Shown: piece by piece, positions 12,918-53,469 of the stretch
Numbering within the stretch: the first letter of the stretch is position 1
How the letters are laid out: each line of letters starts with the position of its first letter
NCBI RefSeq assembly: GCF_900188205.1
Contig: NZ_FZOH01000002.1
Location: 248,001-312,000 of the forward strand
DNA: 64,000 nt
Direction of reading: 5' to 3'
Origin: Geodermatophilus saharensis
Lineage (GTDB): Bacteria > Actinomycetota > Actinomycetes > Mycobacteriales > Geodermatophilaceae
The notes under the pieces: model-generated
What the model saw: only the letters and a program-made list of their open reading frames with translations
What the model was told of the DNA's origin: nothing
Databases searched by the model: none
Position numbers and translations under genes: made by a program

Positions 12918-13013
12918 GGTGGTGTCGTCCGTCCTCTGTCGGGGGAGCCGCCACTGTCGGGCCGGTCCGCCGGGCTGTCAACGGATTCCGCCGCGCGCCC
13001 TGGTGACGGGATG

Positions 13014-13076
13014 CAACGGCCTGCCTGCAGGGTCCCGCCGCGAGCGTGCGAGTGGTGGGGGCAGGCAGGTCCTTCC
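13014..13076 (-). repeat. Dispersed hairpin element A, copy 1 (after uppS)
   Basis: Element of about 60 bp starting GGAAGGACC directly after the uppS TGA (minus strand). Outer stem arms CCTGCCTGC (13020-13028) and GCAGGCAGG (13061-13069) pair at 9 of 9 positions and enclose the conserved core with CGCTCGCGGCGGG. Likely a terminator or mRNA 3' structure. Confidence 0.8.
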
Positions 13077-16003: not shown

Positions 16004-16024
16004 CGGACAAGTCTCCTACCGGTG

Positions 16025-16089
16025 GAACCGGCCCTCGCGCAGGGGCCCGCCGCGAGCCTGCGAGCGGTGGGGGGCGGGAGGGTCCTTAC
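16025..16089 (-). repeat. Dispersed hairpin element A, copy 2 (after the CNNM/CBS gene)
   Basis: Element starting GTAAGGACC after the TGA of the CNNM/CBS gene. It has the conserved core CGCTCGCAGGCTCGCGGCGGG; the outer stem pairs CCCTC with GAGGG, and the remainder is imperfect. Confidence 0.75.
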
Positions 16090-27416: not shown

Positions 27417-27477
27417 TTCGGCCCCGTCCGGAGGCTCGCGCCGAGCCTGCGAGGCGTGAGGAGGACGGGGTCCTTGC
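27417..27477 (-). repeat. Dispersed hairpin element A, copy 4 (after hemW)
   Basis: Element starting GCAAGGACC after the hemW TGA. Arms CCCCGTCC (27422-27429) and GGACGGGG (27463-27470) pair at 8 of 8 positions around the core CGCCTCGCAGGCTCGGCGCG. Confidence 0.8.
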
Positions 27478-34045: not shown

Positions 34046-34141
34046 TGGCGGAGGCGGACGGGAATCGAACCCGCCTGACCGAGCTGCTCGGCCACGTCGG
34101 CTTTAGAGGCCGCGGGGGCCACCAGACACCCTGACGCCTCC
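34046..34141 (-). tRNA. selC: tRNA-Sec with anticodon CUA (reads UAG)
   Basis: A 96-nt tRNA including encoded CCA. The acceptor stem pairs 7 bp (GGAGGCG / CGCCTCC) and the T stem 6 bp, giving the 13-bp stacked helix typical of tRNA-Sec. The variable arm has 8 bp (TGGCCGAG-CAG-CTCGGTCA). The T loop is TTCGATT and the discriminator is G. The anticodon loop reads CTCTAAA, so the anticodon is CTA (34106-34104) in place of the usual TCA. The anticodon stem has 4 clear pairs plus a G-A, and the D stem only GGG/CCC plus a wobble as I fold it. Location between selA and selD fixes identity. UAG-decoding tRNA-Sec is reported for Geodermatophilus and Blastococcus. Confidence 0.93.
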
Positions 34142-41879: not shown

Positions 41880-41926
41880 CACACGAGAGAGGCCCCCGGA
41901 CCTGGTCCGGGGGCCTCTCTCGTGTG
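41880..41926 (+). terminator. Terminator of the sugar importer operon
   Basis: Perfect 22-bp stem (CACACGAGAGAGGCCCCCGG... and complement) with loop CTG, 24 bases after the last permease stop. Confidence 0.9.
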
Positions 41927-41929
41927 GTG

Positions 41930-41996
41930 AGGTGCTGGAACGGCCGCCCTCCAGGGGCCCGTGCCGAGCTCGCGAGGCGCGGGGGGTGGTCCTTCC
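41930..41996 (-). repeat. Dispersed hairpin element A, copy 5 (after divIVA)
   Basis: Element starting GGAAGGACC right after the divIVA TGA and ending GGCCGTTCCAGCACCTC. The outer stem pairs 7 of 9 (CCGCCCTCC against GGGGGGTGG). Core CGCCTCGCGAGCTCGGCACG. Confidence 0.75.
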
Positions 41997-45637: not shown

Positions 45638-45697
45638 GCGGCCCCCGTGCAGGGGCCCGCCGCGAGCGTGCGAGCGGTGGGGGGCACGGGGGTCCTT
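45638..45697 (-). repeat. Dispersed hairpin element A, copy 6 (ftsZ-pgeF gap)
   Basis: This 60-base element makes up the whole gap between the ftsZ TAG and the pgeF GTG. Arms CCCCCGTGC (45642-45650) and GCACGGGGG (45684-45692) pair at 9 of 9 positions. Begins AAGGACC. It contains 20 sense codons in the ftsZ/pgeF frame. Confidence 0.82.
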
Positions 45698-46975
45698 CTA
45701 CTGGCGGAGGAAGTCCGGGATGTCGAGCTCCTCCTCGAAGTCCTCGTTGCCCAGCGGCCGGCGGCCGGCGGCCCCGGACGCGGCACCGTGGACCGGCGGC
45801 AGCGGCGGGACGGTGATGCCGCCGCCGGGCGGGGTCGCGCGGGACACCGGGGCCGGCGCCGGGGAGACGGGGGCCGGCGGGACCGACCCGACCAGCCGCT
45901 CCCCCGTGGCCCGCGGCAGGCCGGCCGACGGCGCCGGGGCGACCGGCGGCGACGGCAGCCGCCCGGGGGCGGTCGTGGGCCCGGCGGACGGGACGGCCGC
46001 GACCGCGCCGTCCTTGCGCGAGGACGGGCGCCCGCCGTCGAAGCCGGCGGCGATGACGGTCACGCGGACCTCGTCGCCGAGGGCGTCGTCGATGACCGCA
46101 CCGAAGATGATGTTGGCGTCGGCGTGGGCCGCGTCGGACACCAGCGAGGCGGCCTCGTTGATCTCGAACAGGCCCAGGTCCGAGCCGCCGGAGATCGACA
46201 GCAGGACGCCGTGGGCGCCCTCCATGGAGGCCTCCAGCAGCGGGCTGGCGATCGCCTGCTCGGCGGCGAGCAGCGCGCGGTTGTCCCCGCGGGCGCTGCC
46301 GATGCCCATGAGGGCCGAGCCGGCGCCGGACATGACCGACTTGACGTCGGCGAAGTCGAGGTTGATCAGGCCGGGGGTGGTGATCAGGTCGGTGATGCCC
46401 TGGACACCGGAGAGCAGCACCTGGTCGGCGGTGCGGAAGGCGTCCATCACGCTGACGTTGCGGTCACCGAGCTGCAGCAGCCGGTCGTTGGGGATGACGA
46501 TGAGCGTGTCGCACTCGTTGCGCAGCTCCTCGATCCCCGACTCGGCCTGCACGGCGCGCCGCTTGCCCTCGAAGGAGAACGGGCGGGTGACCACGCCGAT
46601 GGTGAGCGCGCCGAGCTTGCGGGCGATCGAGGCCACCACCGGCGCGCCGCCGGTGCCGGTGCCACCACCCTCGCCGGCGGTCACGAAGACCATGTCGGCG
46701 CCCTTGAGCACCTCCTCGATCTCCTCGCGGTGGTCCTCGGCCGCCTGGCGGCCGACGTCGGGCTGCGCGCCGGCACCGAGGCCGCGGGTGAGCTCCCGGC
46801 CGACGTCGAGCTTGACGTCGGCGTCGCTCATCAACAGCGCCTGGGCGTCGGTGTTGATGGCGATGAACTCCACCCCCTTCAGACCGACCTCGATCATCCG
46901 GTTCACCGCGTTCACGCCGCCGCCGCCGATGCCGACGACCTTGATGACCGCGAGGTAGTTGTGCGGAGGTGTCAT
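45698..46975 (-). CDS. ftsZ: Cell division GTPase FtsZ
   Basis: A 425-residue tubulin-like GTPase forming the Z ring. N-domain [17 protein letters not shown], signature GGGTGTG (103-109), T7-loop region [20 protein letters not shown], a Pro/Ala-rich linker of about 80 residues and the C-terminal peptide LDIPDFLRQ that binds SepF. ATG at 46975. The stop is TAG, followed at once by a hairpin element, in an organism whose tRNA-Sec reads UAG. Confidence 0.98.
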
Positions 46976-47333
46976 GTGGGGCTCCCGACCTCGACCCTCA
47001 TCCTCAAGTGGAGACTTAGCGTTATGTCAACTGGGTCGACGCGGACGAAGTTAGGTGGGCCCTGTCGGCACCATCAAGCACCCTCCTCGGACCGGCGTGT
47101 CGCGACCCCCGCTTCTCACGGATCTCCGGCGACCCGCTGGTCACATCTGCACCACCGATCGTGACGACCCGCGGTCGGCGATCCCTCATGCCGGGGTCGA
47201 GACCGTGAGCACCGGCACCCGTGGCCGGATTCGGTCCCGATGTCGTGTCGGGCGTGTCGCCGCAGCGGGCGTGTCGGCGGCGCGCCGGTCGATCAGCGGT
47301 CCGCACGCGGGCACGCACGCACGGCAACGGGAT
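46976..47333 (-). promoter_or_regulatory. ftsZ promoter/leader region
   Basis: A 358-base non-coding stretch upstream of ftsZ. A perfect -35-like TTGACA (47030-47025, minus strand) sits in a locally A/T-rich section (AGTTGACATAACGCTAAGTC). A matching -10 is not obvious. The section resembles the conserved ftsZ leader of other actinobacteria. The rest shows no gene or repeat. Confidence 0.5.
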
Positions 47334-47399
47334 GGAACGGCCTTCCTGCAGGGTCCCGCCTCGAGCGGAGCGAGGGGTGGGGGGCAGGACGGTCCTCCG
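47334..47399 (-). repeat. Dispersed hairpin element A, copy 7 (after ftsQ)
   Basis: Element starting CGGAGGACC after the ftsQ TGA and ending GGCCGTTCC. Arms CCTTCCTGC and GCAGGACGG pair 8 of 9. The core is divergent (CCTCGCTCCGCTCGAGG, a good inner hairpin). Confidence 0.75.
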
Positions 47400-50743: not shown

Positions 50744-52201
50744 TCACCGGGACCGTCCCGGGCGGTCGGCGAGACCCCGCCGGTCGCGGTCGGGACGGCG
50801 GGCGGCCGGCGGCGGCACGCGGCGGGCGGTGCCGCGGTCCTCGGCGGGCCGCCGCAGGGGGTGGGCGCCGACCGGCCGGCGCGGGGCCGGGCGGGCCGGG
50901 TCGGGCTCGGGCCGCGGCCGGCGCTGGCGGACCGGGTCGACGGCGAGCTCGGGCACCGGCAGCAGCCAGCGGGCCGGCCGGCCGCGGTCGCGGCTGCGGG
51001 CGTACTCGATGGCCGCGGGCTCGGATCGGGCGAAGCGGATGAGGATCCCCACGATGAACAGGGTGAGCACCAGCGAGGTGCCACCGGCGGAGACCAGCGG
51101 CAGGGTGACCCCGGTGACCGGGAGGACGCCCACCACGTAGCCCATGTTCATGGCCGCCTGGCCGACCAGCCAGACGGTGATCGCCACGCTGGCCAGCGAC
51201 ACGAAGCGGTCGGCGGTCCGGCGGGCGATGCGGAAGCCGGCGTAGGCCAGCACCGCGTAGAGCGTGACGACGACCAGGCAGCCGAGGAAGCCGAGCTCCT
51301 CGCCGATGATCGCGAAGATGTAGTCCGACTCGGCCTCGGGCAGCAGGTTCCACTTCATGGCGCTGTTGCCCAGGCCCACCCCCCACAGCCCGCCGTTGGC
51401 CAGCGCGTAGAACCCGCGGACGGCCTGGAAGCCGGTGTCGGTCGGGTCGTCGAAGGGGTGCAGGAACGAGGTGACCCGCTCCAGGCGGTACTCCGAGGTG
51501 CCGACCATGAGCCAGACCAGCGTGGCGACGCTCGCGGTGCCGATCCCCCACAGCCGCCCCGGCAGGCCACCGGCCCACAGCAGCCCGGCGACGACGAGCA
51601 GCAGGCTGACCACCGCGCCGAAGTCCGGCTCGAGCATGAGCAGGCCGCTCATCAGGACGAAGACCGGCAGCAGGGGCACCAGCAGCGTCCGGACCGTCAG
51701 GTGGCGGCCGCGCAGGGCGAGCACGTGCGCGCCCCACAGGGCGACGACGAGCTTGGACAGCTCCGAGGGCTGGAAGTCGGTGAACCCGAGGCTGATCCAG
51801 GCCCGCGAGCCGTTGTACTCGACCCCGATGCCCGGGACGAGCACCGCGACCAGCAGCACGGTGACGACGACCAGCGCGACCGGTGACCAGCGGCGGACCA
51901 GCCCGGCGGGCAGCCGCACCGCGACGCCGAGCGCGACGAGACCGAGGACGGCGAAGACGAGCTGGTCGACGCCCGGGCGCCAGGCGGGCTGGTCGTCGAG
52001 GGCGGCCTCGATGGCCGAGGCGGAGAACACCATGACCAGCCCGATGGCCAGCAGCAGTCCGGCCGCGCCGATGACCAGGTGGCAGCTGGTCATCGGCCCC
52101 TCGAGCCAGGCCGGGCCGCGCAGCCGCCGTCGCAGGGGCGCCGCTGTGGACGTCCGGCGGGGCGTGCGCCGGGCGCGGGTGGACTCGCTGCGGCCGTCCA
52201 T
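50744..52201 (-). CDS. ftsW: Peptidoglycan glycosyltransferase FtsW
   Basis: A 485-residue SEDS-family lipid II polymerase with ten helices that works with FtsI. Conserved signatures: [26 protein letters not shown] and [13 protein letters not shown]. Long Arg/Pro-rich tails at both ends (residues 1-35 and 405-485) are cytoplasmic. ATG at 52201; the upstream 188 bases hold hairpin repeats in place of murD. Confidence 0.95.
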
Positions 52202-52269
52202 CCGGCCATCGTCGCCGAGCCGGGCGTGCGGTCCCGGCAGGGCTCCCGCGTGTCGCGTTCGTCGGCGCG

Positions 52270-52314
52270 GTGAGGTGCTGGAACGGCCCCCTCGCAGGGA
52301 CCCGCGGCGAGCAG
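52270..52314 (-). repeat. Half copy of hairpin element A
   Basis: Contains only the distal half of the element: GCTCGCCGCGGGTCCCTGCG, then AGGGGGCCGTTCCAGCACCTC (minus strand). It directly follows the full copy at 52317-52389, so the two are in tandem with the first half of this one missing. Confidence 0.7.
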
Positions 52315-52316
52315 GT

Positions 52317-52389
52317 GAGGTGCTGGAACGGCCGCCCTCCAGGGGCCCGCGCCGAGCCTGCGAGGCGTGGGGGGGAGGGTGGTCCTTCG
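52317..52389 (-). repeat. Dispersed hairpin element A, copy 8 (after mraY)
   Basis: Full copy starting CGAAGGACC after the mraY TGA and ending GGCCGTTCCAGCACCTC. Arms CCGCCCTCC and GGAGGGTGG pair 8 of 9; core CGCCTCGCAGGCTCGGCGCGG. Confidence 0.8.
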
Positions 52390-53469
52390 TCACAGGCCCG
52401 TGAGGGACAGCCAGTCGGCGTAGAACAGCCCCAGCCCGAAGGCCACGGCCATCCCGGTGACCAGCCAGAACCGCACGATGACGGTGTTCTCCGCCCACCC
52501 GGCGAGCTCGAAGTGGTGGTGCAGCGGGGCCATCCGGAACACCCGCCGGCGGGTCGCGCGGAAGAAGGCGACCTGGATGACCACCGACAGCGTCACCGCG
52601 ACGAACAGGCCGCCGAGGACGATGAGCAGCAGCTCGGTGCGGGTGACGATGGCCATCCCGGCGAGCAGCCCGCCCAGGGCCAGCGAGCCGGTGTCGCCCA
52701 TGAAGATCCGCGCCGGGCTGGTGTTCCACCACAGGAAGCCCAGGCAGGCGCCCAGCGCCGCGGCGGCCACCAGCGTGACGTCGAGCGGGTCCCGCACCTG
52801 GTAGCAGCCGTCGACCGCGGCGGTGGCGCAGTCGTGGGTGAACTGCCAGAAGCTCATGACGACGTAGGCGCCGAACACCATCGCCGAGCACCCGGCCGCC
52901 AGCCCGTCGAGGCCGTCGGTGAGGTTGACCGCGTTGGAGAACCCGGCGATGAACAGGTAGGCCAGGACCACGAAGCCGATGGCGCTGACGAACAGCGGCT
53001 CGATGTCGCGGACGTAGGAGACGAACTCCGACGCCGGCGTCACCCCGGCCTCGTCGGGGAAGTTCAGCGCCAGGACGGCGAAGGTGAGCCCGACGACGAG
53101 CTGCCCGACGAGCTTGGCGGTCTTGTTCAGCCCGAGGCTGCGCCGGTGACGGATCTTGAGGTAGTCGTCGAGGAAGCCGACGGTGCCCAGGCCCACCATG
53201 AGGAACAGCAGCAGCAGGCCGGTGGCGGTGACACCGCGTCCGGGCTGGCCGATGAGGAAGAGGTGGGCGATCAGGTAGCCGCCGACCGTGGCCCCGACGA
53301 TGACGGTGCCGCCCATGGTGGGCGTGCCCTTCTTCGACAGGTGCGACTCGGGGCCGTCGTCGCGGATCTCCTGGCCGAAGCCGCGCCGCCGGAAGGCGCG
53401 CACGGCCAGCGGCGTGGCCAGGATGGAGATGAACAGCCCGAACGCCGCGGCGATGAGGACGGACTTCAC
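52390..53469 (-). CDS. mraY: Phospho-MurNAc-pentapeptide transferase MraY
   Basis: A 359-residue ten-helix membrane enzyme making lipid I. Catalytic and substrate motifs: [20 protein letters not shown] (Asp pair), [15 protein letters not shown] (Asp), [15 protein letters not shown] (metal Asp) and the basic [15 protein letters not shown] block. The GTG at 53469 overlaps the murF stop (GTGA). Normally followed by murD, which is not present here. Confidence 0.97.

Follow-up and report, generated by a model that had tools for sequence, protein, structure and literature searches.

The closest described counterpart of the locus analysed here is the L-Glu route, in which MurD2 ligates L-Glu and MurL carries out an epimerization that turns ATP into AMP, in organisms that are without D-Glu-forming genes (available part of PMC8788868). 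Specificity for L-Glu is assigned there to residues E197 and R358 of X. oryzae, equivalent to D182 and K348 of E. coli; MurL is said to be without known conserved domains, and the route has been proposed as a narrow-spectrum drug target. The same part of that source names the actinobacteria Micromonospora, Actinoplanes, Verrucosispora, and Salinispora for the pathway, not Geodermatophilaceae, and reports in vitro proof for Micromonosporaceae. Among the papers listed in literature searches, none dealt with MurL in Geodermatophilaceae.

The genome of Geodermatophilus saharensis (G000; 4.89 Mb in 20 contigs, completeness 99.98%) has very probably exchanged the MurI racemase and the MurD D-Glu ligase for a MurD2-MurL branch, with the activities of the pair predicted by comparison. 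The pathway itself is a known alternative; the family is new to the available part of the PMC8788868 account, and within it the exchange has left a clear genomic fingerprint and seems to have recurred. At the level of sequence, the case comprises a murD-less cluster, no murI found, a new linked gene pair with its specificity residues, mutual exclusion of old and new genes, and separate origins of this pair inside the family. As in the known system, a MurD-like ligase gene lies beside a MurL homologue, no D-Glu-forming gene of the two families searched (murI and TIGR01121 aminotransferase) was found above cut-off, and the ligase has E and R at the two L-Glu specificity residues. The difference lies in the gene order, with murD2 followed by an overlapping murL here, whereas other groups of the order have murL-murD2, divergent, or convergent arrangements.

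On its minus strand, the window, a stretch of 64,000 nucleotides from this genome, carries a dcw cluster that reads murE, murF, mraY, ftsW, murG, murC, ftsQ, and ftsZ (NCBIfam naming, with murC, murG, and murF scored as parts of longer ORFs and ftsQ scoring under the cut-off of its model). It also holds a selenocysteine tRNA at 34050-34141 on the minus strand (RF01852, 65.4 bits). The NCBIfam murD model was compared with eight proteins of the window and reached its cut-off with none of them. The stop codon of mraY (52390..53469, minus strand; TIGR00445, 308.3 bits, cut-off 192) is at 52390-52392 and the in-frame ATG of ftsW (50744..52201, minus strand; TIGR02614, 370.9 bits, cut-off 337.5) at 52201-52199. 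The junction between them, exactly 52202..52389 or 188 bp, is the place of canonical murD in murI-bearing relatives and contains none, and the absence of murD from this position, first remarked in a sequence-only reading of the stretch, is thus correct to the base.

The same kind of junction is found throughout the relatives that have MurL. Of 96 family genomes sampled out of a larger set, 32 carry MurL and 64 do not. In every one of the 32, all separate assemblies, mraY and ftsW are separated by 29–251 bp that hold no murD; in canonical genomes the distance is 1374–1477 bp with murD inside (n = 5 measured), and all these lengths except that of G. saharensis run to an extrapolated first ftsW residue rather than a proven start codon. 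In a sixth canonical genome (G019) the contig ends at this place, with murD behind mraY. Beyond the family, nine MurL genomes with a readable dcw cluster from five other families (f2, f4, f8, f11, f16) have mraY followed by ftsW and no murD; G237 and G287 fall outside this scoring. No credible murD relic was found in the junctions of the family MurL genomes. Scattered murD matches in G041, G092, G082, and G057 (28–36% identity, E 7e-5 to 7e-4) were rejected, as they fall in or across the neighbours mraY and ftsW. The length of the mraY-ftsW gap may serve as a simple marker of organisms using the L-Glu route.

The sequence-only reading had argued that murD must lie elsewhere, unless the assembly or strain had lost the segment, and had suggested a genome search, which yields a single copy at C10:158303-159559, the sole murD above the family cut-off (253 bits, TIGR01087 cut-off 212). 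What that reading missed was the divergent type of this copy, the adjoining putative epimerase gene, and the loss of murI. Directly after murD2, in the same direction and with an overlap of up to 41 nt, follows an ORF of 454 aa. Its match to the MurL model NF041275 has an E value of 5e-92 and spans positions 7–444 of the 447 in the profile. Its score of 308.7 bits is under the curated cut-off of 700 of this model, which is named for Xanthomonadales, and by this measure the protein is classed as a homologue of MurL and not as a member of the narrow Xanthomonadales equivalog. Searches of Pfam and of PDB sequences gave no match to it. The two genes are adjacent in all 32 MurL-bearing family genomes.

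MurD2 sequences form a clade separate from canonical MurD with support of 100/100. Canonical full-length murD rows score 338–381 bits against 253 for the MurD2 of G. saharensis; shorter rows, from murI-bearing or incomplete genomes, score 221 (G076) and 316 bits (G084). At the positions of E. coli D182, K319, and K348, canonical MurD has D/K/K in 12 of 12 rows, whereas the G. saharensis protein has E, L, and R. This E/L/R combination is found in 34 of the 55 MurD2 rows (its own included), next to E/I/R in three, D/L/R in 17, and one partial row. Since 17 MurD2 rows retain D, the residue at position 182 does not by itself define the MurD2 type.

No murI match was found in G. saharensis at E 0.001. 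Within the family, no MurL genome (0 of 32) has a murI that exceeds the cut-off, as compared with 62 of the 64 others, the two exceptions among the latter being 79% (G005) and 76% (G084) complete. Six of the 32 (G004, G015, G030, G013, G034, G048) have weak racemase-family matches of 24–30 bits against a cut-off of 147. In the murI-bearing relatives G053, G006, G043, and G085, murI is located upstream of rph, flanked on one side by a cysM-like gene and on the other by a hydrolase gene. Within the compared loci, cysM, hydrolase, HAD, nhaA, and ygfZ are names that we assigned presumptively. The slot from the cysM-like to the hydrolase gene is free of murI in all six genomes where it is readable (G000, G051, G078, G034, G011, G052), in a comparison in which some matches are in overlapping frames and some genes were missed by the gene-finder; G001, with a stretch without the cysM-like gene, was left out of the count. 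The aligned parts of the two flanking genes are 7–84 bp apart in G078, G034, G011, and G052. The former slot in G. saharensis (L283:9864-10519) contains an unrelated ORF of approximately murI length, which we take to be HAD-like by motif, and the spacing in G051 is similar. No credible murI relic was detected when the corresponding loci of six genomes were searched: five gave nothing better than E 0.04, and the match in G052 (E 4.9e-4) is positioned outside the slot.

One alternative is that the divergent murD is a relocated but ordinary D-Glu ligase, fed by an unrecognised racemase or aminotransferase. MurD2 does pass the TIGR01087 murD cut-off (253 against 212 bits), and all 32 MurL genomes have weak matches to D-amino-acid aminotransferase (TIGR01121); these matches are nevertheless far under the cut-off of 277 bits in every one of the 32 (36 bits in G. 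saharensis, 96 at best, in G066). The separate MurD2 clade, the different residues at the Glu-specificity sites, and the MurL homologue next door in 32 of 32 genomes, none with murI above cut-off, likewise speak against it, and we consider this alternative very unlikely. In the preferred reading, an exchange for the MurD2-MurL branch, MurD2 would ligate L-Glu first, and the product of the overlapping downstream gene, MurL, would then epimerize this terminal residue to D-Glu with conversion of ATP to AMP. Once MurD2-MurL had been acquired, the dcw copy of murD and the murI gene behind the cysM-like gene would have become dispensable, and both may then have been deleted with no detectable relic, the 188-bp mraY-ftsW junction being the result.

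MurL is carried by all 21 sampled genomes of the own genus (g1) and all three of g2, by seven genomes of g11, and by one of g6. Entire sampled genera (g1 and g2) thus live without murI and canonical murD, textbook essential genes of the cell wall. At the order level (298 genomes), 80 genomes match the MurL query and 77 were counted; left out were G118 (33 bits), G160 (21 bits, with stops), and G304 (MurL-like, murI present), while G100, a fragment at the edge of a contig, is among the 77 but was omitted from the MurL tree. Above cut-off, murI is found in 0 of these 77 as compared with 204 of the 221 others, and G239 and G257, both with MurL, have murI matches of 91–93 bits, under the cut-off. 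G304 has its MurL-like gene alongside murI and a canonical murD in the dcw slot, and MurL homology alone is therefore no proof of the exchange.

A different origin of the junction was suggested in the sequence-only reading, namely that recombination between hairpin repeats after mraY and after murD had recently deleted murD, leaving one full element and half of another. The repeats themselves are as described: a full unit of 76 nt (52314..52389, minus strand) starts immediately behind the stop codon of mraY and is adjoined by the distal part of a second copy (45 nt, 52269..52313, minus strand) with 84% identity to the distal part of the 76-nt unit, and such units could recombine. Seven units lie in the window, each on the minus strand and directly behind a TGA or TAG. 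Besides the one after mraY, they follow the stops of ftsZ (45639..45698, 81.7%) and ftsQ (47333..47399, 79.1%) and, in the case of the units 41926..41995 (88%), 27419..27475 (84.7%), 16023..16087 (79.1%), and 13002..13075 (77.3%), TGA triplets; five of the seven pass a strict reading-frame filter for anchoring, which those at 47333..47399 and 27419..27475 fail. The 121-bp composite (76 + 45 nt) has at least 41 matches in the genome including itself, of which at least 10 cover 119 or more of the 121 bases, both counts being lower bounds from 40 scored of 272 first-look candidates. Among the best copies, 22 of 28 have their first base at a stop codon that closes an open frame of 100 codons or more, as against 156 of 18,000 random positions, and 26 of 29 pass a looser stop-codon filter. 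Beyond the best copies, stop anchoring is seen in one of two in other G. saharensis stretches, five of seven in G078, none of two in g11, and one of two in G052; the stretches of G051 and G001 contained no copies.

The copies of the unit can be aligned to a stem with compensatory changes. In 31 near-full copies (30 best genome loci), pairing holds in 95.3% of pair cells and 60 cells carry a double change (shuffle mean 18.4), neither value being reached by any of 500 shuffles; nine pairs have a double change, a number reached by 3 of 500, and in its count of pair types the stem does not exceed shuffles (346 of 500 reach it). These figures are favoured by the derivation of the structure from the same 31 copies. 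The whole 188-bp gap folds no better than shuffles (z +0.46), and no Rfam family matches the repeat at gathering thresholds. Mycobacterial interspersed repetitive units are short dispersed repeats that lie next to stop codons where genes end. By description, the repeat analysed here resembles them in this position, and it has a stem with compensatory changes. Its role may be guessed to be in termination or mRNA stabilisation.

Repeat units are present in the mraY-ftsW gap of 12 of the 32 MurL genomes and none is shown in the other 20. Because the copies are dispersed and mostly anchored at stop codons, and because 20 of 32 gaps show no unit, the repeats in the gap are a dispersed 3´-end element unrelated to the loss of murD rather than its scar. 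In g1 and g2, murD is absent from this place in 24 of 24 sampled genomes and 12 of the 24 gaps show no repeat; the seven g11 genomes and G052 are without murD and without such a repeat found in the gap; and the full-plus-half composite recurs at at least nine other places in the genome. A deletion between two repeats is accordingly highly improbable despite their adjacency. A loss specific to this strain, also raised at the time, does not agree with the absence of murD from the junction in all 32 family MurL genomes. Comparison with relatives, named in advance as a way to refute the deletion, revealed an old and fixed murD-less arrangement, but the repeat pair is not common to all. Assembly collapse or a missing segment, conceivable at repeats in an assembly of 20 contigs, can practically be discounted, as the same kind of junction recurs in 32 separate assemblies, three of them single-contig (G030, G059, G078), and completeness is 99.98%.

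The exchange for MurD2-MurL appears to have taken place more than once. MurL of g1 is only 33–37% identical to that of g11 and G052, and 37–43% to that of the order group f16, which we take to be Micromonosporaceae; MurL of g11 is 61–63% identical to that of an f10 genome and 52–57% to that of f4. The MurL and MurD2 trees agree in splitting g1 and g2 from g11 and G052, in a MurL tree that holds only 10 f16 rows and in which long branches limit the placement of outer MurL groups. A single clade for all 32 family MurL sequences is rejected (AU p 1.3e-60). In a mraY-ftsW tree of 38 genomes, three state changes are found, in g1 plus g2, a subgroup of g11, and G052, a count limited by the presence of only six canonical genomes among the 38. 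The order is murD2-murL in g1 and g2 and murL-murD2 in g11, G052, and the f4, f8, f10, and f11 genomes compared; it is divergent in two f16 genomes compared and convergent in f2, and in G296 the genes are on different contigs. One murD2-murL site is common to G000, G051, G078, and G001 (g1, g2) and a different murL-murD2 site to G034 and G027 (g11), and the match between the G052 and G034 loci is confined to the two genes, in a comparison for which the gene-finder likewise missed some genes. Taken together, the trees, the order of the two genes, and their insertion sites point to three independent switches in this family. In our reading, the pair was gained horizontally several times and both canonical genes were lost afterwards, an order of events and a route of transfer that these comparisons suggest. 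Close relatives with and without the swap (within g11, and G052 as compared with other g6) allow the replacement of an essential step to be put to a direct test.

The structure of MurL was predicted with AlphaFold from 55 homologues with L130 (92% identical to the G. saharensis copy) as the first sequence. The full-length model has a pLDDT of 92.3 and a pTM of 0.92, and the catalytic part alone 92.1 and 0.91. With VIA-align, used as a second look at the list from Foldseek, the catalytic part is closest to QatC (9y02; Z 15.8, rmsd 3.2, 214 aligned), QueC (3bl5; Z 15.1, rmsd 3.2, 178 aligned), and Cap9 (Z 14.7, rmsd 2.7, 160 aligned), with YcfA, thiouridine synthetase, and LarE at Z 10.5 and below; QueC is also top for the full-length model (Z 13.2). 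G157, G158, G159, D161, and S162 of the PP-loop GGGxDS are invariant in the 55 sequences, as are the cysteines C313, C331, C334, C337, and C383, including those of a WCxxCxKC motif. QueC has a cysteine zinc site. Likeness to QueC, QatC, and Cap9 extends to the loop, the invariant cysteines, and the modelled fold of the catalytic domain (Z 14.7–15.8), but identity is only 12–16%, and Foldseek found nothing at E 0.001 or better for the catalytic part (LarE best at 1.7e-3, QueC at 2.5e-3) and an unrelated enzyme as the best match (E 0.07) for the full-length model. MurL is therefore likely, though not proven, to be a QueC-like PP-loop enzyme, as judged from the model. Such a fold would fit the published ATP-to-AMP reaction of MurL and the adenylation idea of its authors, because PP-loop enzymes make AMP. 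If MurL is QueC-like, a concrete mechanism follows, in which the alpha-carboxylate is adenylated, the substrate deprotonated, and the adenylate hydrolysed. Among the papers listed in literature searches, none presented MurL as a QueC-like protein, and the term MurL is absent from the available main text of a 2026 paper on the QueC family (PMC13279940). We hold it to be rather likely that MurD2-MurL is a transferable module that has repeatedly evicted the essential genes murD and murI from actinobacteria (three times in one family, from at least two sources, with the murD-less dcw cluster as its fingerprint) and that MurL represents an undescribed QueC-like branch of PP-loop enzymes, which would explain its ATP-to-AMP epimerase chemistry.

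Further variants of these genes were seen in single records. The MurL-like gene of G304 (L316, G304:C2) has a GGKDS loop and lies on a 242-kb contig, with no murD2 found in the surrounding 13-kb stretch. MurL homologues adjoin a MurD-like gene in records from Lachnoclostridium (L176), Falkowbacteria (L155), and a Bacteroidetes MAG (L204), outside the groups named in the available part of PMC8788868. In six of 78 database loci (L156, L162, L164, L166, L170, L174), from records of Falkowbacteria (two), Parcubacteria, Alphaproteobacteria, Acetobacteraceae, and Lysobacterales, MurL and MurD2 are fused in one uninterrupted ORF of 832–881 aa.
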